Assembly: GCF_030413635.1 (NCBI RefSeq)
Contig: NZ_CP129235.1
Coordinates: 3,100,001-3,164,000, forward strand
DNA length: 64,000 nt
From: Planococcus shenhongbingii
GTDB taxonomy: Bacteria > Bacillota > Bacilli > Bacillales_A > Planococcaceae
Direction of reading: 5' to 3'
Below the pieces are notes generated by a model. It was not told the DNA's origin, did no database searches, and saw only the letters and a list, made by a program, of their open reading frames with translations. The translations under genes and the position numbers were made by a program. Each line of letters begins with the position of its first letter. The first letter of the stretch is position 1. Below, piece by piece: positions 5,343-61,780 of the stretch.

Positions 5343-6602
5343 TTAAGTTAACTCTCTTTTATAATTTTGAATTACGTATGGTCTTTTGCCAGATTTTTTT
5401 GGTGGTATTTCCTGTACATAATGAAAGGTGATTAAGGCATCTCTTCCTAAAAATTTCTTAAAACGATCTTCTATTAGTTTTTCTTCTTTATATCCTTTAA
5501 GTTTAATTATCCTTACAGTGTATTCTTTTTCGCTTTCCTGACTAAACTGATACTGCAAAATATTTTCTATATCCTGCATTGCACCATTTATTGCGAAACC
5601 TGAAACAACATCGCCATCAGTATTGAATATTTCTTCAATTAATCTACCCTCAATTTTATCAAGTACAGGAGATGTCCTTCCGCACTCGCATTGTTTTTCA
5701 CTCATGATACCTAAATCACCTGTATCGTATCTTATTAATGGCATAGCATGGGAAAATAAGTCTGTGACTACAATTCTGCCTAGCTCTCCCGGCAAGGCAG
5801 GAGAATCATTATTTATATTAAGTACTTCAATAATATAATTTACATCGTTTAAATGATGTTTTAACTTTTCTGGACATTCGTTTGCTAATACACCAAATTC
5901 TTGTGTAGAGTATCGACTTAACGCATTAACTTTAAATGCTTTTCTTATAGTTTTTCGATAGCTTTCTGTCAATACCTCTGAAACACAAATTACTCCATCT
6001 AGGTTATACTGTTTCCCTTCACTTATTACATATTTGGCTAATGTAGCTATTGCAGAAGTATAACCAATTAAAACCAAAGGTTTTTCTTCATCTAAAACAC
6101 GTTTTTGAGTATTCAGCCATTTGATATCTAATGTGAAAGGAGCCATAATAATTTCATTCTGCAAAAATAATTTCAGTTTACTTTTAGACTTAGTCATTAA
6201 ATAAGCGTGTTTTTTCCCAACCTTATAATTTGCCCATTCACCATAATATAATATTTCAGCTCGCTGTTTATCTTTCTTTTCAGAAGTTAAATAAAATGTG
6301 AAGGGAGTACCATAAGATCCACTTGTTGTCATCTTATATAATTGTTCTATTTTATATGAATTAGATAAGAAATCATTATAATTCTCTTTAATTACATTCT
6401 TAGAAATAATGGGATACTCATTTAAACTTTGATTTAATGAGTAATTCTCATAGTGCTTCGTGGTGTTTTTTGCGTGAGACAATAATTCATTAAACTTGCT
6501 TACTTGGCTCTTTTTACTGCCAGATTCAAGTTCTTTAATATTTTTCAATATTTTGTTTCCTGATATTTTCTCTTTAAGAATAAACAAGTTTTCTCTTAAC
6601 AT
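5343..6602 (-). CDS. CapK-like adenylate-forming enzyme (phenylacetate-CoA ligase family)
   Basis: The 419-residue cytoplasmic protein belongs to the ANL superfamily branch that includes phenylacetate-CoA ligase, coenzyme F390 synthetase and capsule proteins called CapK. The phosphate-binding loop TSGSYGTPF is at about 93-101. GELGRIVVTDL and RYDTGDLG lie in the C-terminal half, followed by a CxCGRxxPxLxxIxGR segment. Such enzymes adenylate a carboxylic acid. In capsule loci they may activate an acyl or amino-acid decoration, but no role is proven. The ribosome binding site GGGGAG precedes ATG at 6602. It lies between the acetyltransferase and the aminotransferase genes, with gaps of 53 and 75 bases. 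The gene is strongly AT-rich. Confidence 0.85.
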   Translation of the reverse strand: MLRENLFILKEKISGNKILKNIKELESGSKKSQVSKFNELLSHAKNTTKHYENYSLNQSLNEYPIISKNVIKENYNDFLSNSYKIEQLYKMTTSGSYGTPFTFYLTSEKKDKQRAEILYYGEWANYKVGKKHAYLMTKSKSKLKLFLQNEIIMAPFTLDIKWLNTQKRVLDEEKPLVLIGYTSAIATLAKYVISEGKQYNLDGVICVSEVLTESYRKTIRKAFKVNALSRYSTQEFGVLANECPEKLKHHLNDVNYIIEVLNINNDSPALPGELGRIVVTDLFSHAMPLIRYDTGDLGIMSEKQCECGRTSPVLDKIEGRLIEEIFNTDGDVVSGFAINGAMQDIENILQYQFSQESEKEYTVRIIKLKGYKEEKLIEDRFKKFLGRDALITFHYVQEIPPKKSGKRPYVIQNYKRELT

Positions 6603-23086: not shown

Positions 23087-23272
23087 AGCGGCTTCCCCCT
23101 ACTCGATTAGTTATTGTTTATATACCCTTTCGAAAGAAAGCTAGTCGGTTGTGGCTAGCAATTTTTCGTCAATAAATAGAGAAGTTTTTTACTTAGGCTG
23201 ATGGATTTAGTTGATTTTCATTGAATTCTTTTTATCCTGTTATTGGTATACTGTGGCAAAAGGAGTGATGCG

Positions 23273-24202
23273 ATGTTTATGAAAGAACGTGAGGCGCCGG
23301 CTTTGCTGGAGGTGCTGCCCCGGTTGATGCATCGGCTAAAGATGGAACATGAAGATATTGTTTCCGACCACTATAAGGCGAGAGCCGGGTTTGGCGGAGA
23401 GCAGCGGGTTGATGAGTTGTTGCAGCGGATGCGCTGGTTGGAACCCCCTGTCATTATCGCTGATCTGCAGCTGAATGAGCGCTTTTGCCAGATTGATACG
23501 GTGGTGCTGACTCCGCATTTTGCTGTGGCGCTTGAAGTGAAGAATTATTCCGGGACGCTGTCGTTTGATGAACAAAGTTTTCATATGAAGCAAGAAACAC
23601 GTGACGGCAAATTTTTCGGGTACAATTCTCCTGTGACGCAAGCGTGGAATGCGCGAGAAGAGTTGCAGATTTTATTCCATCGGCTTAGTATTCCGTTGCC
23701 TGTTTATACAGCTGTTGTGCTGCCGTACTCGACGACGCTGATTGAAAAGGCGCCGATAGAAGTACCTGTGATTTACGGTTATTCGCTGAACCGGTTCCTC
23801 TCCTCCCTCCCCCGGACCGGGCTGCCGATGCCTCCTCAAGAACTGGCGCGCGCCGGCCAGCTTGTCATTGACCACCATACCCTTTCCCCCCAGATGAATT
23901 ACCAGGATGTGTACCGTTATCAGTTGAAGGATTTGAAAAAAGGCGTGCTGTGCGGCAGCTGCGGAGCGGTTTGTGCGCGGAAAAGTGAGCGCGTGCATAT
24001 TTGTATGAAATGCCACTCAGATGTCTGGGACGGCTATTCCCGGGCATTGGATGATTGGTTCGAGTTTGTGTCGCCTGTGATTTCGAATGCCCAGTGCCGG
24101 GAGTTTCTCGGCTTGAAGGATAAGCATGCGGCTGGGTATGTGCTTCGGAAGATGGGTTTGGCATCACATGGCGATTCTGTCCGGCGGGTTTATATGAGAT
24201 AG
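23273..24202 (+). CDS. NERD-domain protein with a C-terminal zinc ribbon
   Basis: The nuclease-related domain is seen from GFGGEQRVDELL (about 43-54) to QIDTVVLTPHFAVALEVKNYSG. That segment holds the Asp and Glu-x-Lys residues of the PD-(D/E)XK-like core. The C-terminal quarter has CGSCGAVC and ICMKC, a probable four-Cys zinc site. Length 309. ATG at 23273 has GGAG about eight bases upstream; the open frame extends 30 bases further but without a start signal. NERD proteins are thought to process or bind DNA, but no role is established. The gene is single, with a TATACT -10-like element at 23247-23252. Confidence 0.85.
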   Translation: MFMKEREAPALLEVLPRLMHRLKMEHEDIVSDHYKARAGFGGEQRVDELLQRMRWLEPPVIIADLQLNERFCQIDTVVLTPHFAVALEVKNYSGTLSFDEQSFHMKQETRDGKFFGYNSPVTQAWNAREELQILFHRLSIPLPVYTAVVLPYSTTLIEKAPIEVPVIYGYSLNRFLSSLPRTGLPMPPQELARAGQLVIDHHTLSPQMNYQDVYRYQLKDLKKGVLCGSCGAVCARKSERVHICMKCHSDVWDGYSRALDDWFEFVSPVISNAQCREFLGLKDKHAAGYVLRKMGLASHGDSVRRVYMR

Positions 24203-24296
24203 TTTTGTGGAGCCAGTCGTTGGTGCGGCCGGCTTTTTTGTGGAGTTATTATGGGGTGGGTAGTTGAGTTTCTACTATAATATAGGTGTTGTTTTG

Positions 24297-24402
24297 GTGA
24301 GTTGCGACCTTTTGCGGGTGAGTTGCGACGAATCGGGCGTGAGTTGCAACCAATTGCCTTTGAGTTACGACCTTTTGAAGGCGAGTTGCAACCTCCAGTG
24401 GA
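24297..24402 (+). repeat. Five-unit array, 21-bp period (block 1)
   Basis: An 11-base core, GAGTTGCRACC with small changes, begins at 24299, 24320, 24341, 24362 and 24383, exactly 21 bases apart. The ten bases between cores vary. The same core forms block 2 (24503-24609) and the array at 33764-33868. Confidence 0.93.
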
Positions 24403-24439
24403 ATGAGCAGGTATTTAATGAGGGATGCCCTTCTTTTTC

Positions 24440-24461
24440 GCTTTTCGCCGCGGCGAAAAGC
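24440..24461. repeat. Perfect 22-bp palindrome between the two repeat blocks
   Basis: GCTTTTCGCCG at 24440-24450 is followed at once by its exact reverse complement. A near-identical palindrome with the same flanking bases (TTTTTC before, ATG/ATC after) is at 33718-33739 beside the related array, and a shorter one is at 36489-36507 beside a different array. Confidence 0.93.
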
Positions 24462-24502
24462 ATGTCATTGGGGCTTTGGGGTGTTTGTTATGGCTGGTTT
24501 GC

Positions 24503-24609
24503 TTGAGTTGCACCCTTTTCGGGGTGAGTTGCAACGAATCGGTTGCGAGTTACGACCAATGCGGCTTGAGTTGCAACCAATTGCTCGTAAGTTACAACCT
24601 CGCGCATGG
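24503..24609 (+). repeat. Five-unit array, 21-bp period (block 2)
   Basis: Core positions are 24505, 24526, 24547, 24568 and 24589, again exactly 21 apart. The cores read GAGTTGCACCC, GAGTTGCAACG, GAGTTACGACC, GAGTTGCAACC and AAGTTACAACC. Confidence 0.93.
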
Positions 24610-24658
24610 GAAATCCCCTTTTTGGTCGCTGTCCCTTACTATTGCTTTTCCCATACAA

Positions 24659-24688
24659 AGAGAGTGCAGGGTTATTCCTGCACTCTCT
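24659..24688. terminator. Terminator of the first large S8 protease gene
   Basis: AGAGAGTGCAGG 24659-24670 pairs perfectly with CCTGCACTCTCT 24677-24688, thirteen bases beyond the protease stop on the minus strand. Only a short T stretch follows. Confidence 0.8.
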
Positions 24689-24701
24689 TTCACTCCATTA
24701 T

Positions 24702-27700
24702 CTACTTGATTGTTTTCTGGCCTTTATTGCCAGCGGCGTCTGTTACGCTGACTTTTACAGAGTCGGTTTGTGCGTTGAATCCTTTAACGGTGACGTTAAA
24801 ATTGCCTTTTTGGTCCAGTTTGAACGGTACCGCTTTTTGGGCTTCGCCGTTCCGGGTGATAACGTACGACGCTTTCAATTTAGTATTCAAATCATAATTA
24901 GTCGGAGGAAAGTACTTTTCTAACTCGGCGTTATAGTCAATGTATTTGTCAATCACTTTCCCAGTCAGCTTTCCTTCCTTGATGGAACCGCTAATTTTCG
25001 GTGGCGTTGTTTTTACAAAGACCGGAGAAATCATTTCTTGAATATACTCCGGATTTTTGGATGCCGGGGTACCTGTGAAAGTGAAATGGTACAAGCCGTC
25101 TGGTAACATCGTTTCAGGGCCTCCGTTCCATGGCCGATAATTCCCTTTGAATAGAATCTTATTTTTTCCAGCTTTCAAGGTAGTTCCTAAAAGGATGTAG
25201 CCAACAAGAGGATCTTCAAATACATTGGGATCGGTTTGCAGCAAAGTGTAAACTTCCATTGAATGCTGAGCTAGGTCTCCCGTCAGCGTAAAGCTGATTA
25301 CTCCCTGATCATGGATGCCATCTCCATTAAATGACAGGTCTCTTTCAGAGATTTGCAGAGACTGAAGTTCGACTAAGAGGTTCCCGCTCAAATCAGCTGC
25401 AAACGGCAAAGCGATCGTCGTGGTGCCGTTTGAAATGCGGATATAGCCAATGATTTCATCATCCACTGCCGCATTGGCGTTCTTTGAAGCAATCAATGTG
25501 ACGTTCAGCAGCTGTTCACCAGCCAATGTAAATGTCGGTTTATCGACAGTCAGTTTGGCATTGCCCGCTGTTTTCTTCACATCAACCGTCACTTTGTAAT
25601 TGCCGCCTTTGCCGGTAATATCTTTCACCAGGATTTTCTTGGAGACGGAAATATCCTTTTGCTTGATAGGCTGCGCCCCGAATGTGACCGAGCCTTTGAT
25701 GTTGTCTACTAGAGTCCCGCTCTGGTTTTGCACCGCTTTGTCCTGCACGTAAGCGAGGGCAGCTGGATGGACGGCATTGTATGCTTGGACGCGGCCGGAG
25801 CCTTGTGCAAACACATCGTATTTTGCTGTATCCAGTAATTTCGCCGTATTGGACAAAGCGACTTTGATATCGGACGCTGTCCAGTCCGGATGCGCTTGCT
25901 TCATGAGGGCAATGATCCCGGTCACATGCGGTGCCGACATAGACGTCCCTGAATTGCGGACATAGGCGTCACTGTAATCGGCGTTCGGGAAATCCGATTT
26001 ATACATCGGGAGCGCGGACAGTATGTTCATGCCCGGTGCGATGATATCCGGCTTAATGTCAAAGTTCGGCGTAGAGGGTCCGCTCGAGCTGGTCTGGGAA
26101 ATGACGTCACCCGCTGTTGCTTTCTTGGTGAAATTTGCAAAAGACACGGTGCCAGCCGCTTTTGCCACTGCCAGGCGCAACGCTTCTCCGTCCGTCTGAG
26201 ACAAGTCAAATGCCGGGATAAAGTCCGGCGAGTCGCCGAAGAATACGCCATTCGGCCCCGGTGATTCCTGCGTGTTGCGGATGTTATGGATCAGGATGGC
26301 CACAGCCCCTTTTTCTTTGGCAATCCGGATTTTATCAACATATTCGTTTTTGCCCCGGGCAACAAGCACCACTTTTCCTTTTACATCCAGCCCTTCATAA
26401 TCAACGGCTTTTCCTGCTTCCGGAATAGCGACCACCGGGAACGATCCCGCCAGCTGCTTTGCCGGATCTTCATTGATCGCAGTAGCCATCAGGTTATGGA
26501 CTTTGGCTAATTTAAAGCTGCCGGCTGTTGCATTGACAGTGCCTTTATGCCGCTCTTCCGGCAAAGTTGAGTTGCCGACTGCAATTCCAAGGCGCGAAGT
26601 GGCCGGCGTGCCAATCGATCCCCGATATAAGCCGTTATTTCCCGCTGCAGATACGGCCAGCGTTCCGCTGAGTACGGCATTGTTCAGTGCAAAAGCCATC
26701 GCTTCCGCTTCTGAGGTCTGATAAGCGTTAAGCGATAAATTGATGACATCCATATCCTGGATGACCGCTTCTTCGATTCCCGCAATCACTTGGGAAATCT
26801 CTCCGGAACCGTAGGCTCCAAGCACGCGGTACATATACAGTTCAACTTTCGGTGCAATTCCTTTAAAACCGAAATCATTGGAACCCGTTGCAGCGATGAT
26901 TCCCGCTACATGCGTTCCGTGAGACGTGGCAAATTTATTGCCATACGGATCTATTGCGGGCTGATTTGCCGGACGCTCCGATGGTTTGGTTTCAGACGGG
27001 TCATCTTTGGCCCGCGGCTTCGTATACTGGCTAGAACTTGGCACAAAGTTTTTTCCGCCTTTAAAGACCGTTTTGAATTCCGGATGGTCCCGGTCAATCC
27101 CTGTATCCAGAACCGCTACTTTGACGCCTTCCCCTTCATATCCTTCCGTCCACAGTTTATCGGCTCCAAGAAATGAAGCACCTGAATTGAGAGAAGCTTG
27201 AACCTCTTCTTTCGGGACAACCGGAATTAATTGGACGCGGGTGTCTGGTTCAATTAGGAGGACGCCTTTGATCGCCAGTAATTTTTTAAGATCCCCAGCT
27301 TTCACTTTTGCTGAAAAGCCGTTCAGGACGGTGTTATACGAATAACCTTCCTTCACCGAGAGCTGCTGTGACTGGATCTGCGTTTTTACAGCTGTTTGCT
27401 GGGCAACGACGGCCGCTTTCACTGCGCCGACTTGTGCCTGGGAAATAGCTTTTCCTTCTGATGCCTGGATTCCCTGCTCGAGCGCAACTGGCCGTTGGGA
27501 AAGGTGGACGATGACATTGACTTCTTTTTCAGGTGCTATGCCCTGCAAGTCTTGATGGAGCATCGGCCCTCTTTCCAGCAACCTTGTCTGTTCGGCGATG
27601 GCTGCCCGGATATGTGCCTGGCCTTCTGATTGTGCGGCTGATTTAAATGGGCTGTTGGCTGCTGTTGGTGTTGCGGCCGGGTACGGGAACAGCAGGGTAA

Positions 27701-27758
27701 GAATCATAATGAGTGCCACTATGCTGCTGAAGACTTTCCAAAATGTGTGTTTTTCCAA
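24702..27758 (-). CDS. Secreted subtilisin-like (S8) serine protease, Vpr-like, with inserted PA domain
   Basis: A 1018-residue exported protease. The signal peptide is at about 1-33 (hydrophobic core FSSIVALIMILTLL). An inhibitor-type propeptide follows (EVNVIVHLSQRP, SYNTVLNGFSAKV). The catalytic domain has Asp near 218 (VAVLDTGID), His near 280 (SHGTHVAG) and Ser in GTSMSAPHVTG. A PA domain (VKGKVVLVARG, KEKGAVAILIHN) is inserted before the Ser, and a long beta-rich C-terminus ends in VTDAAGNKGQK. No SLH or sorting signal is seen, so it is probably released. I prefer the TTG at 27758, nine bases after AAGGAGG, over the TTG at 27764, which is too close. It is a single gene with its own terminator. 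Confidence 0.93.
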   Translation of the reverse strand: MEKHTFWKVFSSIVALIMILTLLFPYPAATPTAANSPFKSAAQSEGQAHIRAAIAEQTRLLERGPMLHQDLQGIAPEKEVNVIVHLSQRPVALEQGIQASEGKAISQAQVGAVKAAVVAQQTAVKTQIQSQQLSVKEGYSYNTVLNGFSAKVKAGDLKKLLAIKGVLLIEPDTRVQLIPVVPKEEVQASLNSGASFLGADKLWTEGYEGEGVKVAVLDTGIDRDHPEFKTVFKGGKNFVPSSSQYTKPRAKDDPSETKPSERPANQPAIDPYGNKFATSHGTHVAGIIAATGSNDFGFKGIAPKVELYMYRVLGAYGSGEISQVIAGIEEAVIQDMDVINLSLNAYQTSEAEAMAFALNNAVLSGTLAVSAAGNNGLYRGSIGTPATSRLGIAVGNSTLPEERHKGTVNATAGSFKLAKVHNLMATAINEDPAKQLAGSFPVVAIPEAGKAVDYEGLDVKGKVVLVARGKNEYVDKIRIAKEKGAVAILIHNIRNTQESPGPNGVFFGDSPDFIPAFDLSQTDGEALRLAVAKAAGTVSFANFTKKATAGDVISQTSSSGPSTPNFDIKPDIIAPGMNILSALPMYKSDFPNADYSDAYVRNSGTSMSAPHVTGIIALMKQAHPDWTASDIKVALSNTAKLLDTAKYDVFAQGSGRVQAYNAVHPAALAYVQDKAVQNQSGTLVDNIKGSVTFGAQPIKQKDISVSKKILVKDITGKGGNYKVTVDVKKTAGNAKLTVDKPTFTLAGEQLLNVTLIASKNANAAVDDEIIGYIRISNGTTTIALPFAADLSGNLLVELQSLQISERDLSFNGDGIHDQGVISFTLTGDLAQHSMEVYTLLQTDPNVFEDPLVGYILLGTTLKAGKNKILFKGNYRPWNGGPETMLPDGLYHFTFTGTPASKNPEYIQEMISPVFVKTTPPKISGSIKEGKLTGKVIDKYIDYNAELEKYFPPTNYDLNTKLKASYVITRNGEAQKAVPFKLDQKGNFNVTVKGFNAQTDSVKVSVTDAAGNKGQKTIK

Positions 27759-28245
27759 AATCAACTTCCTCCTTCGAATTGTTATGTATTATCTGAAATC
27801 TTAAACAATTCAATTCTATCATGTTTTTTTATTAGTTTGATGGTTTTTTAATAAATAATTACCAATTTTATTTTTGGAGTTTCCAAAGATGGATTTTGGT
27901 GAGGGATTATTGGTTGATTTCATAAGTATGATTTTTTAACACTCCGCTTCGGACGCTTTGGGCAGAGCTCCCGCCATAAGCCGAGAAATGCACTCGTCTT
28001 ATAGCTTCGCTTCGCCCTTGGACGCGCCTTCGCTGGATAGTTTTTTGTAAAAGAGATACTTGTTTTTATGGCTTTATGATGGTTTACTACCTTGATATGG
28101 GACAAAGCAACAGAACTTTCTTCCAGTATATCCACTGTTAACACATAATTATGACAGACAAATTTCTGTAAATTCTATTTTCTCTATTGATTAAATTTAT
28201 ATTTAATGTAAAATTTTAGTTAAAAACAAAAACAGGAGTGGAGAA
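27759..28245. other. Divergent intergenic region with repeat copy B
   Basis: No gene is supported in these roughly 490 bases between divergent transcripts. They contain copy B of the dispersed structured repeat (27942-28038) and otherwise AT-rich sequence that must carry promoters for both neighbours. Confidence 0.6.
27942..28038 (-). repeat. Dispersed structured intergenic repeat, copy B
   Basis: The reverse complement of this segment aligns without gaps to copy A through about 95 bases (CCAGCG start, TCTCGGCTTATGG centre, GCCCAAAGCG end). The central stem is CTATAAG with CTTATGG, which replaces one A-T pair by a G-T wobble. Confidence 0.88.
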
Positions 28246-28605
28246 ATGGGCGCGTGGGGTACGGGGATATTTGATGATGATACGACTTGTGATGTGAAAG
28301 ATGGCTTTATTGATTATATAGAAGAAGGTTTGTCTTCTAAAAAAGCGGCGACGATCATTTTGGATGAGTATTTGGAGGAGTTCCATCCCGAGGAAGATTT
28401 TGAAGTGATGTCGCTGGTGCATATCGGGCTGGCGGCTGTGCAGCTGGAAAACAATTGCCTGGTGGAGGATGTGCGCCATTTGGCGATCCAGTCCATCGAC
28501 CGCGGGGCGGATCTGGAGCTTTGGGAAGAAGCCGATGAAGCGGATTATCTGGCGCGGAAAAAAGAGTTGGAAGAGTTGAAGCAGAAATTGCTTGAAGTTG
28601 GATGA
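28246..28605 (+). CDS. DUF4259 family protein
   Basis: The 119 residues begin MGAWGTGIFDDDTTCDV, the defining N-terminus of DUF4259. Alternating acidic helices follow, ending in a Lys/Glu-rich coiled segment (KKELEELKQKLLEVG). It has no signal peptide and is strongly acidic, so it is a soluble cytoplasmic protein. Family function is unknown. Members are scattered singly in Firmicutes, often next to unrelated genes, as here. AGGAG lies about eight bases before ATG at 28246, and a strong bidirectional terminator follows. Confidence 0.88.
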   Translation: MGAWGTGIFDDDTTCDVKDGFIDYIEEGLSSKKAATIILDEYLEEFHPEEDFEVMSLVHIGLAAVQLENNCLVEDVRHLAIQSIDRGADLELWEEADEADYLARKKELEELKQKLLEVG

Positions 28606-28613
28606 TATATAAA

Positions 28614-28652
28614 GGAGTGCCATCAGCCTGGGCTGATGGCACTCCTTTTTTT
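28614..28652. terminator. Strong bidirectional terminator
   Basis: A 15-base arm, 28614-28628, pairs perfectly with 28631-28645 and is followed by seven T's (A's precede it). It serves both DUF4259 (plus) and the second large protease gene (minus, stop at 28656). Confidence 0.95.
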
Positions 28653-28655
28653 GGC

Positions 28656-31600
28656 TTAAGGTGCTTGTTTAATGATGGTGAAAGTGATTTGTGACCGGTT
28701 CCCTGTTAAGTCTTCGGCGACTAGCGTGAAATTATTGGGTCCTGTTGCCGGCACTTCGATTGTTTCTGTGATGTTTTCATTGAATTCGACCCGATCGTTC
28801 CGGCTTATTGGATGGGCGTAGATTTCACTGTCGAATAAATAGACGCGGATCTGGTCGAAGTTGTCTTTGACATTGAACGTGATTTCCGTTTCGTCTTCAT
28901 CCGCCGCAATCGTTTCCGGCACATCGATCAATTCAATAGCAGGAACGGTGGTGTCGACGAAGATCCGCCGGCGGATTTCCATATCGTTGCCGAATTCATC
29001 GACCGCTTTTATGGTGACGTGCTGGGTGCCATCTTCAAATGTCAATGTGTGTTTGAACGCCGTGCCGTTGAATTCTCTTGGCACTTGGCCATTGATGGTG
29101 AGCGACGTCACTTTCGACGCATCTTCCACCCGCCCGGTCACTTCGACGGTTTTGGTTTTATGCGTCGACAGCACGGCTGGTGCATCGATGTAAATGACTG
29201 GTTCGTTCGTTTCTGCTGCCGGCGCCACTGTTGTGCTTGTTGGCAGCGCCACTTCGGTTTTATTGCCAGCGGTGTCGTAGAACACGGCTTTCAGTTTGTC
29301 GGCCGGCTTGAGTTCAGCAGCTACGGTGTAGGTGGCCACGCTTGGCGCCAGCGATTCGTCTGCAGGAGTTGCAGTGTTTTCCGTCAATTCGGTGTTATTT
29401 AAGAACACTTCCCAGCGGTCTGCTCCCCCGCCTCCCGGATTATCCGTGAAGCCGGCCACTTGGATAGTTTTGGTTTGTGCATTGAATGTCACCGTTGCCA
29501 CTGGTTTTGCGGTATCGACGATGATCGGGAAATCGATTGATTGCCATTCAGCGTCCGGATAATCGATGACCGCCCGCAATTGAATGCGGTATTTGCCGTC
29601 CGCCGCTTTTTTGCCAAGGATGTTGCCGTCCCAGGCATACAGCGGATTCAATACGTACGGCACGTCGGGTGCGGTCGCTGAGAAGTTCTTGCGCAATTCC
29701 TCATCGGAGCGGATCGTCCGCAGCTTTTCGCCTGCTTCGTTCAGGATATTCACTTCAACCTGCTTGGCGTTCCGCAGCAATGAGAAGACCGGAATCACAG
29801 CATCCAGCACACCGTCCCCGTTCGGTGAAAAGGCGAAGCGTCCGGGTTCGTAGCCGGTCGAATGGCTGTTGCCGTTGATAATTTTACCGGTCGGGTCAGC
29901 AAGCAGCGTCCGGCCGTAGAACGTATTCGGATCCCAGGCGAAGCGGTCAAAGATGCGGGCGTCGTCCCAATCGCCGCTAAAGCCGAAATACGGAACGGCA
30001 AGCGCGGTATTGCCCGTTACTTCTTCATCGCCATCGGTCAAGGTGATAAAGCCGTCCACGAAGAAGCCGTTGGTGAAATTGCTTTGGAGCTGTTCGCTTG
30101 CTCCTGAAACATCTACGGTCACCGGAATATCAATGGTTCCGTTAGCAGGAACGGTGATGGTGGCCGGTGCATCGATTTCTGTGTCTCCCGTGATATTGAG
30201 TGAGCCGAGTTCGTTCGGCGACGTGACGACTTTGCCGTTGGCATTGGTCACAGCGTCGACTTGGACATTGACGGTGACGTTAAACTTGGCCGCTTGGTCC
30301 GATGTGTTTTCAGCGGTCAGCGTCATGCCGATTTGATTTTCGGCGATTTCCTTCAAGGCCACGTATCCATTTCCTGTTTCTTTATCAGTCACAATTACGC
30401 GGGTTGAAAGTGCATCATGGAGCTGCATGAGTCCCGCTCCTTGGCGTCTTGGCGAGACGAACTGGCCTTGTGAGAACACCACCGGATTGGCGGTATTCAT
30501 CATCAGCGTTTTCGCCAACTGCACACGGTCGCGGCCGGTGAGTTCCTGCTCTTCAATGCGCTGGAACAACAGCGCCGCTCCACCGGCCACATGCGGAGAG
30601 GCCATTGATGTGCCGCTCATCAAGCCGTATTCGTTGTTGTTGAGAGTCGAGAAAATATTGCCGCCGGGCGCTGTGACTTCTGGTTTGAAATCGAGGTTCG
30701 GCGTCGGTCCCCAGGAAGTGAAGGCGCTCATTTTGCCGGCCGTTTCACTCGGCACTTCAAAATACTGGCCGTCGAATGTGACGGTCACTTGCTGTTTCGC
30801 ATCCAGCCCTGCTTTCATAGCCAGACCGACGGATTGCAGCGTCGACATATACGGAATCGTGATGGCCGGGTCGGTCTGCATGGCGACCGTGCCTGCAGTG
30901 TTGTTGTAGATAATGACGGCGACGGCGCCTGCTTTCTGGGCGTTCAAGCCTTTTTCAACGAACGTGATGCCGCCTCGGGCAATAAGCGCCACTTTGCCTT
31001 TGAAATCTTTCCCTGTAAAATCAGCAGGCGTTCCAAGCCCGGCATCCATTACCGGATAGGTGTCCTGCGGCAGCCCGGCCGGATCGGCGTTATTTCCCAG
31101 GAAATAAATGCCGCGCTGCGTTTCTTGTGCTGCTACCTTATAAGCAAAGCTTTTGGCGGTGATGACGTCGTTTTCAAAAGACGCCACCCCAAAAGAATCG
31201 GGTGACACACTCGGTGAGCCCGTCAATCCGTAATCCTGGTTTTCCGCCAGCGGGTTGAAGTGGCCGGAGCCGAATAAATTTTCGTTCCCTGCCGAAATGG
31301 CAACGAGGATGCCGTTGTTGGTCGCGCGCTCTACGGCTTGCTGTTCCGGATCTGTCGAATCGACGAATCCGGCAGTGGCCCCGATTGATAAATTGAGGAC
31401 GTCTGCGCCCAGTTTAATGGCGTCGTCCATCGCTTTGATGTAAATGTCGCTGTACGTTGATTCGTACAGCGGGTCGTTGCTGAACACTTTCAAGGCCAAT
31501 AGCTGCGTTTCGGGTGCGACGCCGCGGATGCCGCCGTCTTCTTCGTTGCCGTTTGCGCCAACGGTTCCGGCGACGTGCATGCCGTGCATCGAGGCGTTCG

Positions 31601-32360
31601 GCCGGATATCACGGACTTCGTTATTGGCGTCCATGTAATTGAAGCCGAACGGCACTTTCGCGGAGAAGTACTGGCCGTTCGGGACCGAGCCGTCCGCACG
31701 CAAGGCATCGACTTCCGCTTTGGTGATTTCACCGGTTGAGTTGTCGGTCAACACCATGTCTTTATGGGTCGGGTCAATGCCGGTGTCGATGATGCCGACG
31801 ACCGTCCCTTCCCCTTTAAAGCCGTAGTCGTTCCAGACGCGCTGTGCCTGGACCAGTTCTTTTGAATGTTTCATCTCCGGCGTGACGTCCGGCTGCTGGT
31901 ATTCAGTCGCTTCGTAGACCGCTTTGACGCCGGCTTGATCACCGATTTTCGCTACTTGGCCTGCTGGGACAGTGGCGGAAAAGCCGTTGAATACTGTCGT
32001 AAAACTTTGCAGGTACTTGATATTCGGTGCAACATCGCTGACGGAGGCTTTTACCGACTTTTGCTGAGCTGCAACAGCGGCTTCCAAAGTTTCTTTTGTG
32101 GCATTCGGCAATTCACTGTAGAGGATGCCCCTATCCGTGGCTCGTTCAATGGCCGGCTCTTTTTCAAGTTCAACGATGATGCGCACTTCTTTTTTCGGCT
32201 GCTGCGGCTTCAATAATTGCTGCGGGACGGTGGCTGCTTTTTCGGAACCCGGGACGCTGGCGCTTTTGCTGCTGGCGGATTGTGCGGTACCGAATGCCAG
32301 CGAGCTGAATACCAAGGCGGCGATTAAGAAAATCATGAATAAGGCCTTCCGGTTCTTCAA
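28656..32360 (-). CDS. Secreted S8 serine protease of the lactocepin/C5a-peptidase type
   Basis: A 1234-residue exported protease. TTG at 32360 is chosen because AGGAGG lies seven bases upstream; the longer open frame lacks a start signal. The signal peptide core is FMIFLIAALVFSSLAF. The propeptide contains VRIIVELEKEP and FNGFSATV. The catalytic Asp is in VVGIIDTGID and the His in MHGMHVAG, where Met replaces the usual Thr, as in lactocepins. A PA insert (FKGKVALIARGG, AGAVAVIIYNN) follows, and the Ser lies in GTSMASPHVAGG. Fn3-like and other beta domains make up the rest, ending in LTGNRSQITFTII. No SLH, LPXTG or membrane tail is seen. It probably digests external proteins. Confidence 0.93.
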   Translation of the reverse strand: MKNRKALFMIFLIAALVFSSLAFGTAQSASSKSASVPGSEKAATVPQQLLKPQQPKKEVRIIVELEKEPAIERATDRGILYSELPNATKETLEAAVAAQQKSVKASVSDVAPNIKYLQSFTTVFNGFSATVPAGQVAKIGDQAGVKAVYEATEYQQPDVTPEMKHSKELVQAQRVWNDYGFKGEGTVVGIIDTGIDPTHKDMVLTDNSTGEITKAEVDALRADGSVPNGQYFSAKVPFGFNYMDANNEVRDIRPNASMHGMHVAGTVGANGNEEDGGIRGVAPETQLLALKVFSNDPLYESTYSDIYIKAMDDAIKLGADVLNLSIGATAGFVDSTDPEQQAVERATNNGILVAISAGNENLFGSGHFNPLAENQDYGLTGSPSVSPDSFGVASFENDVITAKSFAYKVAAQETQRGIYFLGNNADPAGLPQDTYPVMDAGLGTPADFTGKDFKGKVALIARGGITFVEKGLNAQKAGAVAVIIYNNTAGTVAMQTDPAITIPYMSTLQSVGLAMKAGLDAKQQVTVTFDGQYFEVPSETAGKMSAFTSWGPTPNLDFKPEVTAPGGNIFSTLNNNEYGLMSGTSMASPHVAGGAALLFQRIEEQELTGRDRVQLAKTLMMNTANPVVFSQGQFVSPRRQGAGLMQLHDALSTRVIVTDKETGNGYVALKEIAENQIGMTLTAENTSDQAAKFNVTVNVQVDAVTNANGKVVTSPNELGSLNITGDTEIDAPATITVPANGTIDIPVTVDVSGASEQLQSNFTNGFFVDGFITLTDGDEEVTGNTALAVPYFGFSGDWDDARIFDRFAWDPNTFYGRTLLADPTGKIINGNSHSTGYEPGRFAFSPNGDGVLDAVIPVFSLLRNAKQVEVNILNEAGEKLRTIRSDEELRKNFSATAPDVPYVLNPLYAWDGNILGKKAADGKYRIQLRAVIDYPDAEWQSIDFPIIVDTAKPVATVTFNAQTKTIQVAGFTDNPGGGGADRWEVFLNNTELTENTATPADESLAPSVATYTVAAELKPADKLKAVFYDTAGNKTEVALPTSTTVAPAAETNEPVIYIDAPAVLSTHKTKTVEVTGRVEDASKVTSLTINGQVPREFNGTAFKHTLTFEDGTQHVTIKAVDEFGNDMEIRRRIFVDTTVPAIELIDVPETIAADEDETEITFNVKDNFDQIRVYLFDSEIYAHPISRNDRVEFNENITETIEVPATGPNNFTLVAEDLTGNRSQITFTIIKQAP

Positions 32361-32494
32361 GGTTTTTCCTCCTCTAGAATAATAGTAAATTTTATTGAAC
32401 ATTCATAATTTATTGATAACTATAATTTACCATAGTTTTTCATTTTTGAGGGTATAAAACCGTGTCGATTTGGTTTTATTTTTTGGAAGCATTA

Positions 32495-33717: not shown

Positions 33718-33739
33718 GCATTTCGCCTAGGCGAAATGC
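33718..33739. repeat. Perfect 22-bp palindrome beside the array
   Basis: GCATTTCGCCT is followed directly by AGGCGAAATGC. Compared with the palindrome at 24440-24461, the inner and outer differences are matched on both arms, so symmetry is conserved while sequence varies. Confidence 0.93.
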
Positions 33740-33763: not shown

Positions 33764-33868
33764 GGGTTGCGACCTTTGGTACGTGAGTTACGACGAATTG
33801 GGCTCGAGTTACAACCTTTTCGATGTGAGTTACGACCAATCCCCTTTGAATTGCAACCTCACCATTTA
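33764..33868 (+). repeat. Five-unit array, 21-bp period
   Basis: Cores related to GAGTTACGACC start at 33764, 33785, 33806, 33827 and 33848, each exactly 21 bases apart, with ten variable bases between. It is the same family as the two blocks at 24.3-24.6 kb. Confidence 0.93.
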
Positions 33869-36391: not shown

Positions 36392-36471
36392 GAACGCAGG
36401 TAAATTTTTCTGAACGCAGATAAAGATTTCTGAGCGTAAATAATTTCAGCTGAACGCAGATAAAAGACTGT
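36392..36471 (+). repeat. Four-unit array, 20-bp period
   Basis: Cores related to GAACGCAGATAAA begin at 36392, 36412, 36432 and 36452, exactly 20 bases apart, with mostly T/C-rich bases between. A more degenerate unit may precede at about 36372. The sequence is unrelated to the arrays at 24 and 33 kb, but it is followed in the same way by a palindrome (36489-36507). Confidence 0.9.
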
Positions 36472-36488: not shown

Positions 36489-36507
36489 GCTTTTCGCTAC
36501 GAAAAGC
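36489..36507. repeat. Palindrome beside the 20-bp array
   Basis: GCTTTTCG 36489-36496, loop CTA, CGAAAAGC 36500-36507, then ATC. Its arms are the same as the outer arms of the palindrome at 24440-24461. Confidence 0.9.
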
Positions 36508-53586: not shown

Positions 53587-54017
53587 TTTTTATTAAAGCC
53601 CCCTTATATGGAAATAAAATCCTTTATCAATCGGAAAGTAAATTCGTTCTTTAGACCTTCCAGATAGTAAATATCTTATAGGAGTTACCAGATGATAACT
53701 ATCATACTTTTTATCTAATTTTTACATATAACTAAAAATTAGTACCTAATTCGATAGTTTTTCACTTAGAGTCACTTTTTGCTTATAGCACATATTTTTA
53801 CAATTTATTTACAATATTTATATGAAACTAAAAATAAATAGAAAAAAATTAAAATTAAGTAGTTATTTATGCTTACTTTTAATGAATTTACCCTTCATTT
53901 AGTTTTTTAAACCTATCTATTCTATCATTTATTAAAAAAAGGAATATTTTAGAACTAAAGTCTGCTAAACTGACTATAGAAATTAACAAAAAAATATTAG
54001 GGGGAAATTTTTAAATT
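53587..54017. other. Divergent intergenic region of two SLH wall-hydrolase genes
   Basis: About 430 AT-rich bases with no supported gene. It holds the WalR box and -10 for the glucosaminidase gene (minus). For the amidase gene (plus) I see TGACTATAGA near 53970, a possible -10, but no matching -35 and no WalR box in that orientation. Confidence 0.6.
53782..53813 (-). promoter_or_regulatory. WalR box and extended -10 promoter
   Basis: On the minus strand TGTAAA-5-TGTAAA (53813-53797) matches the WalR consensus TGTWAH-5-TGTWAH at every position. Nine bases later comes TATAAG (53787-53782), with TG one base before it, an extended -10. The box covers the -35 position, the layout expected for activation. 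The target is the SLH-glucosaminidase. Confidence 0.7.
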
Positions 54018-61479: not shown

Positions 61480-61694
61480 CTTCAGTTCCCCCTTATTATG
61501 TATAAGTAAATTGTACATGATTGAGGACGATTGTTGTAGGACAGGAGGGGTTATTTTGGGTTAGTGGTGTTCGTTAGGGAAAGTTTCCAAAACCGAAGTT
61601 CACATGCTCAGGATGGAAAAGACCTTCGCAGTGCGCAAAGGTCTCCAATGAAGCTCAAGGATGCAGTCCGCCGGTCGGCGAACTGCAATGTGAT

Positions 61695-61780
61695 TTCTAT
61701 CAGTGTTTTGTGCAGGTTCTATCGGTGTTTTAATGGTTTTTATCGGTGTTTCTAAGATTTCTATCGGTGTTCTTCGGAAC
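61695..61780 (+). repeat. Four-unit array, about 21-bp period
   Basis: Cores related to TTCTATCGGTGTT have their TATC at 61698, 61720, 61741 and 61762 (steps 22, 21, 21). The sequence differs from the other arrays, but period and intergenic setting are alike. Confidence 0.88.

Follow-up and report, generated by a model that had tools for sequence, protein, structure and literature searches.

Short direct repeats placed at the helical pitch of DNA are found in plasmid partition and replication sites (parC/ParR arrays and iterons), where they are read by a small DNA-binding protein that is usually encoded next to them. Repetitive extragenic palindromes and bacterial interspersed mosaic elements (REP and BIME), as well as miniature inverted-repeat transposable elements (MITEs), are intergenic, lie near gene ends with palindromes nearby and are present in multiple copies. 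The subject of this work is a stretch of 64,000 nucleotides of the Planococcus shenhongbingii chromosome (NZ_CP129235.1, positions 3,100,001 to 3,164,000), referred to here as the window, in which arrays of 21-bp units with a common core lie beside the gene of a protein with a NERD domain, a zinc ribbon and a winged helix. The arrays can be regarded with good confidence as cognate binding strips that the adjacent protein would read cooperatively, and the same pairing, with many different cores, appears to extend across Bacilli.

The available portions of the papers cited here give the NERD domain several settings. SmdA of Staphylococcus aureus is a membrane NERD protein involved in cell morphology, and the same 2022 paper described the role of the domain in bacteria as unstudied (PMC9040797). 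The defence genes Mokosh type I and Nhi-like contain NERD (PMC10952713), NERD is also described in defence genes elsewhere (PMC12458937), and the NERD protein of plasmid pXO1 is said to have shown nuclease activity (PMC12567373, citing Grynberg and Godzik 2004). The same portions of these four papers mention no repeat array with NERD. A literature search, whose coverage left out most subscription-journal papers, found no paper tying repeat arrays to NERD proteins, and the pairing of a NERD protein with a phased array seems not to have been described previously.

The features that define this pairing in the window are listed below.

23243..24202, + strand: gene of the NERD (PF08378) protein, start codon at 23273, ending 96 bp ahead of block 1
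24299..24403, + strand (that of the NERD gene): block 1, five 21-bp units, core GAGTTRCRACC
24440..24461, strandless: perfect 22-bp palindrome GCTTTTCGCCGCGGCGAAAAGC between blocks 1 and 2
24505..24609, + strand: block 2, five 21-bp units, core GAGTTRCRACC
33718..33739, strandless: perfect 22-bp palindrome GCATTTCGCCTAGGCGAAATGC, 24 bp upstream of the third block
33764..33868, + strand: third block, five 21-bp units, core GAGTTRCRACC

A preliminary description of the window had reported blocks 1 and 2, their exact 21-bp period and the perfect 22-bp palindrome between them, and all of these positions were reproduced. The ten cores lie at 24299, 24320, 24341, 24362 and 24383 and at 24505, 24526, 24547, 24568 and 24589; GAGTTRCRAC is exact in eight of them, with one mismatch each at 24505 and 24589. 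With spacing ignored, the window holds 19 matches to GAGTTRCRAC at no more than one mismatch against 9.7 expected, and none of 100 shuffles gave as many. A gap of 46 bp separates the palindrome at 24440-24461 from the final 11-bp core in block 1, and one of 43 bp separates it from block 2. Its supposed place as a symmetric centre is not supported, since only one flank of the third block has a palindrome and hairpins take turns with blocks in tandem modules at other sites.

The 3.98-Mb genome was searched for unit pairs 21 bp apart, with up to three mismatches allowed and the reversed pattern as control. This gave 17 forward matches, all on the + strand, and none for the control. The matches form five blocks. 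Three are in the window, and the other two, which have more degenerate cores, lie near chromosome positions 1550803 and 3745903. The preliminary description had named confinement to one locus, or spacing that drifts as much as sequence, as grounds for giving up its reading, but spacing does not drift like sequence and arrays are present at many loci. Including this genome, the window-core pattern is present in nine of 60 relatives, and its three-unit form in 11 of 261 genomes of the family. A link to replication polarity was not supported: the window core matches only the + strand in this genome, yet relatives use both.

Across 23 loci and both strands, successive strong cores less than 60 bp apart are exactly 21 bp apart in 210 of 226 cases and 42 bp apart in nine more. 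Exactly five units occur in 33 of the 68 array rows from these loci (range 3-9), two of the rows (L099 and L105; L and G numbers are our handles for loci and genomes) being arrays already listed on the opposite strand. Information content over 280 units from eight species is about 1.4-1.9 bits at most core positions, 0.29 and 0.69 bits at the two variable ones, and 0.02-0.11 bits at five late spacer positions. Orthologous arrays of four species at an acyltransferase locus, aligned by unit, have an identity of 0.96 over 240 core cells and of 0.36 over 168 spacer cells, with the pitch unchanged; between this genome (G000) and G029 the values were 0.86 for core and 0.49 for spacer. Scattered copies within one genome have common cores and spacers that are barely alike. 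The earlier statement that cores drift and spacers vary freely holds for the cores and only in part for the spacers, as composition is biased in the bases that directly follow the core and information falls to near zero only in roughly the last six. Selection on helical phasing for a DNA-binding protein, as proposed at the time, fits well with the exact spacings and with the gap between core and spacer identity among orthologues.

The protein encoded beside the arrays, numbered from its start codon, comprises a NERD domain at residues 39-151 (Pfam PF08378, E 5.4e-14, 53.1 bits against a cut-off of 22.1), a zinc ribbon (C227, C230, C244, C247) and a C-terminal winged helix at about 254-309. Its AlphaFold2 model has a pLDDT of 95.1, and structure comparison gives about residues 3-183 a fold like that of the Nt.BspD6I nickase and other PD-(D/E)XK nucleases. 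In an alignment of 42 NERD proteins, E43 and K90 are invariant and D75 and E88 are kept in at least 90%; we read these four residues as a putative PD-(D/E)XK-type active site. From the model, the NERD domain is predicted to have a PD-(D/E)XK-like fold, and nuclease activity is predicted with it. None of six NERD proteins scanned with PADLOC-DB models matched at E 1e-3. A sixth NERD-domain match in this genome (G000:C1:3031272-3031604, 113.9 bits) was missed with the window protein as query.

NERD-type genes are present in 231 of 261 genomes of the family, often several in each, and a NERD-type protein was found in 138 of 398 genomes, or 61 of 145 genera, drawn from the class with the own family included. 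The first 30 NERD loci yielded 84 period-21 segments in 29 loci, whereas no other period between 12 and 33 gave more than three (range 0-3). Period 20 or 21 was found in 21 of 24 further loci, mostly paralogues of six Planococcus genomes (some extra segments are coding). Matches were likewise present in 23 of 25 NERD loci of 13 other families (one coding by eye) and in 21 of 22 further loci of the own family, and in L113, from another genus, an array also adjoins the NERD gene. When all loci, from the own family and 13 others, were pooled and the threshold was lowered slightly, a 20/21-bp array was present outside the gene and no more than 1.6 kb away in 98 of 105 NERD loci (96 of 102 distinct ones); 58 have it upstream, 79 downstream and 39 on both sides. 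Control periods from 14 to 33 gave 0-5 loci each when not multiples of 3 and 5-15 when multiples of 3, and we read the latter matches as mostly coding.

NERD paralogues mostly differ in core, close orthologues mostly have the same core, and the array strand is fixed relative to the NERD gene within the orthologue groups compared by eye. A general nucleoid element, the other possibility raised in the preliminary description, fits less well because the paralogues carry different cores. At the orthologous locus, five genomes without a NERD match (G004, G019, G024, G027, G145) have no genuine array, the three matches there being coding-like. Array matches occur in 15 of 18 genomes with at least three NERD matches, a few of them weak; among three genomes with one NERD match, G009 has an array at this locus.

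As judged from sequence, core similarity follows the winged helix and not the nuclease domain. The comparison used 90 of the 105 loci, after removal of duplicates (L306, L303, L308), loci without arrays and arrays scoring below 36. Spearman correlations of core similarity with protein identity were 0.171 for the winged helix, 0.168 for the zinc ribbon and 0.082 for the NERD domain. The partial correlation of the winged helix given the NERD domain was 0.156 (maximum of 300 permutations, 0.081), that of the NERD domain given the winged helix was 0.009, and opposite-strand core similarity gave about 0.02. A core is common to 11 of 12 pairs with winged-helix identity above 0.8 and to at most 0.3% of pairs below 0.5.

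A change of specificity can be followed among Mesobacillus orthologues (11 loci from a search with one Mesobacillus-type protein, plus L338). All 12 loci have a period-21 array upstream of the NERD gene, which stops 94-96 bp short of the start codon in 11 of them and 75 bp short of it in L363; all five units fit the core in ten loci, and the first unit is unfit in L363 and L364. The cores are AACCGGAGATAAA (type I), AACCGTTGATAAA (type II), AACCGTTAAATTA (type III) and others, and most or all units of an array shift together. Identity of the specificity triplet and of the spacer is 0.96 and 0.84 within type I, 0.22 and 0.60 between types I and II (9 pairs), and 0.12 and 0.32 between types I and III (12 pairs); the best pair of types I and II, L338 and L359, has spacer identity of 0.77 and triplet identity of 0.27. 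Since types I and II have alike spacers and unlike triplets, their units were apparently changed one by one and the array was not replaced. Separate changes of this kind are what selection by a changed reader would predict.

Protein columns that segregate with core types I, II and III were sought in 11 of the 12 Mesobacillus proteins (the frameshifted L368 left out, L363 cut to 332 residues). Six such columns were found among the 48 variable ones of the winged helix and none among the 115 in the rest of the protein (p 5e-4). They are columns 297-300 (ITNI in type I, IKDL in type II, ASDL in type III), 308 and 312. In the AlphaFold2 model of the window protein, columns 297-300 correspond to residues 287-290 inside the predicted helix 284-293, column 308 to the strand 297-299, and column 312 to the wing between the last two strands. 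Recognition-helix residues 296-299, TITN, TIKD and TASD, correspond to GGAGATA, GTTGATA and GTTAAAT, respectively, in the core. A Mesobacillus-type NERD gene with array (87% identity) also occurs in L362 (JAGGQZ010000013.1), titled Chryseobacterium sp. ISL-80, which is probably a mislabelled or mixed assembly.

The window core belongs to a wider class of phased arrays. A generic four-unit pattern matched 63 of 261 genomes of the family, some matches possibly being coding; the reversed control matched some genomes too, which pointed to phased arrays with other cores. Motif-free autocorrelation at the orthologous locus of 20 species (368 kb) gave 42 period-21 arrays against 1-6 for each other period from 14 to 33, with an N run in L185 adding one match at each period from 19 to 22. 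The acyltransferase gene was found in 46 of 46 genomes; cores at this locus vary among species, some related species have one in common, and several species show no array. In intergenic segments of 35 loci, period 21 gave 91 matches and other periods up to 43 gave 1-11, except for the double period, 42, with 79. A 20-bp class also exists, with one member in the window. As controls, period-20/21 matches numbered five in 400 kb of random 20-kb Planococcus stretches (weak or coding-like by eye, and with no NERD-type gene in these stretches), six in stretches from other families (349 kb) and 14 in stretches from other genera of the own family (300 kb; several genuine by eye); two control sets of 20 stretches were short by five and by two nonexistent stretches. 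L220 (G042) has TTGGATTAAA arrays of 20-21 bp near 5657 and 17524, of another family, with no NERD-type gene in its 20-kb stretch.

The spacer between engB and hemA (gene names are our reading of the proteins) gave matches in nine of 30 loci, with differing cores. The window-type core occupies it in this species. G006 and G029 have CGCAGATAAA there at a pitch of 20 bp, as does G139 with two units, whereas G023, G033 and G008 have TTCCGCAAACAA, and G138, G141 and G005 have GTGATCATAGAA at 20 bp. Beside NERD genes of G000 and G143, GTGATCATAGAA occurs at 21 bp. Together, the different cores in one spacer and the two pitches of GTGATCATAGAA mean that places are reused by different array families and that either pitch of about two turns can serve one core; a fixed pitch of 20 or 21 bp per core is ruled out.

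The remaining features of the window include two arrays of other NERD groups (the grouping is our own).

24211..24239, + strand: terminator-like stretch downstream of the NERD gene (our reading of the sequence)
24657..24690, - strand: inverted repeat of 14 bp that probably terminates the convergent S8 peptidase gene (24702-27764)
36392..36464, + strand: four units, core GAACGCAGATAAA, all spacings exactly 20, array of NERD group E
36489..36507, strandless: inverted repeat GCTTTTCGCTACGAAAAGC (arms 8, loop 3) adjoining the 20-bp array
61694..61775, + strand: four units, core TTTCTATCGGTGTT, spacings 22, 21 and 21, array of NERD group C

The sole group E NERD gene seen in this genome (3556093, L300) is broken and has no array within reach. 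Stop codons or frameshifts also break L250 of G143 and L368, both of which keep their arrays. A group C NERD gene was not found in this genome. In a tblastn search with 56 NERD proteins for a gene relic around the 61.7-kb array, the best window match outside the NERD gene, among the matches listed, had E 0.008 at 57.6 kb. None of nine NERD loci, three of them from group C, matched the window in blastn.

At window 24440, 33718 and 36489, palindromes or inverted repeats whose arms read GCTTTTCG or GCATTTCGC adjoin arrays of two core groups, and stretches that resemble them in part are found elsewhere in the genome too. Autocorrelation scans also gave weak 20-bp and 12-bp periodic stretches at window 53773-53868 and 37645. 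Genes of large S8 peptidases cluster with acyltransferase, patatin, NlpC/P60 and trypsin-like genes at window 24702-32402, with relatives in L098, L101 and L105, and adjoin what we read as exopolysaccharide-type genes. This cluster is a hot spot of arrays in Planococcus and the home of one NERD group. A tie to surface-protein genes, prompted by the cluster, was dropped, as arrays also flank housekeeping genes, e.g. at engB-hemA.

Sequence comparison establishes the linkage, the private cores, the fixed orientation in the groups compared, the exact pitch, the core constraint and the co-variation of winged helix and core. We infer physical binding by the winged helix, cooperativity over about five units, and cutting or nicking of DNA by the PD-(D/E)XK-like domain. 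Each unit would be occupied by one protomer or dimer, which would read the core of about 11 bp through the recognition helix and wing of its winged helix. A distance of two helical turns (20 or 21 bp) between units would place the protomers on one face of the DNA, which would allow cooperative loading, typically at about five sites.

Several observations weigh against this proposal. Six distinct NERD loci have no array (L269, L291, L296, L300, L302, L342), and some positives are doubtful by eye (L340 is coding, L322 and L333 are weak, and L329 appears at the lowest threshold only). Genuine-looking arrays occur without a NERD-type gene in the same 20 kb in L220, L235, L237, L242, L245 and L246. 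Window-type arrays are held by G001 and G029, which have no gene of that NERD group. Their core mismatches per unit, 0.50 and 0.70 as compared with 0.18-0.43 in five genomes with the gene, are barely raised, which suggests that arrays outlast their reader; decay after gene loss is weakly suggested. The correlations between winged helix and core are small, though above all permutations, and the permutations leave relatedness partly in. Core types III, IV and V all have helix residues ASDL despite their different cores. The tree of the Mesobacillus NERD proteins is unresolved, so that shared descent is not fully removed from the column test. Pitch is not strictly tied to core, as can be seen from GTGATCATAGAA.

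Other explanations of the arrays can be set against a cognate reader. NERD-loaded arrays past terminators could act as roadblocks, insulators or nucleoid anchors without any cutting, which is possible if doubtful. Among gaps of 150-2500 bp, 20/21-bp arrays occupy 27 of the 55 between convergent genes, as compared with 29 of the 123 between tandem genes and nine of the 50 between divergent ones, as such a boundary role would have it. Perfect hairpins with a longest arm of at least 9 lie upstream in 49% and downstream in 56% of 61 array flanks (six G131 loci and arrays too near the locus end left out), as compared with 8% of 336 control stretches, and one spacer, engB-hemA, is occupied by different array families in different species. 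A pure DNA clamp would have no need of the conserved E43, D75, E88 and K90, however, and five Planococcus genomes do without a NERD match; the many private cores also speak against a single housekeeping role. It is less likely that the NERD gene with its flanking arrays is an autonomous mobile element, and that the scattered array-palindrome modules of about 200 bp are its non-autonomous, MITE- or homing-like copies. Scattered copies in one genome have cores but hardly spacers in common and are not recent copies, and the high core and low spacer identity of orthologous arrays would need selection on the sites.

Neutral tandem repeats that arise by slippage, with 21 bp as a mutational preference, are very improbable. 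Units and modules do undergo tandem duplication (L096, L104), but the pitch stays fixed though the spacers are near saturation, no other period between 14 and 33 comes near the frequency of period 21, arrays track NERD genes, and cores change together while spacers stay alike. Hardly any weight, and slightly less still, can be given to coding heptads (21 bp being seven codons) or a structured RNA. Several reading frames are open through the arrays; against this, the 20-bp class exists, and the variable core positions 6 and 8 of the window group cannot both be third codon positions. As for RNA, a scan of the window with Rfam 15 found no family above the gathering threshold.

What the putative NERD nuclease does on its strips is a separate step. 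For that step alone, a conflict-type role, either defensive or selfish, for a sequence-specific nuclease or nickase that would be parked on the strips or act at them is our favoured guess and a tentative one, because NERD paralogues are multiple, patchy, fast-changing and sometimes broken, with the active-site pattern kept. The fuller proposal, to which we give about an even chance, is an undescribed two-part system of Bacilli. Its winged helices would diversify into private address words, in step with phased strips of about five units beside the gene and scattered in the genome; upon a shift of specificity, selection would rewrite the units by point mutations, and the strips would mark self or hold the nuclease in genomic conflict.

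The pairing gives the NERD domain a partner and hence a testable role, and it explains why this class of repeats looks different from species to species. It also documents, in nature, how the target of a DNA-binding protein shifts and its sites follow, and the TITN/TIKD/TASD series could help in decoding winged-helix specificity. If the nuclease domain is active, there would be many natural, private, array-addressed nucleases.

Like REP/BIME and MITEs, the present arrays are intergenic, near gene ends, close to palindromes and multi-copy. Unlike them, they consist of direct 20/21-bp units in which mainly the core is kept, tied to the gene of an adjacent putative reader, and identity with REP/BIME was rejected. 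Derivation from a MITE or insertion sequence is less likely, as copies lack whole-length likeness and spacers differ between loci, although tandem copies are alike. A CRISPR array was rejected in view of cores that drift between units, the pitch of 20/21 bp and the 3-9 units; no cas genes were seen among nine proteins scanned, with no systematic search made. SmdA, Mokosh type I and Nhi-like proteins have the same Pfam domain, PF08378, and a predicted PD-(D/E)XK relation, and the fold of about residues 3-183 of the window protein is like that of the Nt.BspD6I nickase, Can2/Cdn1, McrC, Holliday junction resolvases and I-Ssp6803I. A role in replication or partition of a replicon is spoken against by the scattered intergenic sites in a 3.98-Mb chromosome, with no search for rep or par genes made. 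As in iteron and partition arrays, direct repeats at helical pitch lie beside the gene of a probable reader. Unlike iterons and parC, the present arrays are chromosomal, occupy many loci per genome and have many cores, and their putative reader combines a nuclease fold, a zinc ribbon and a winged helix.
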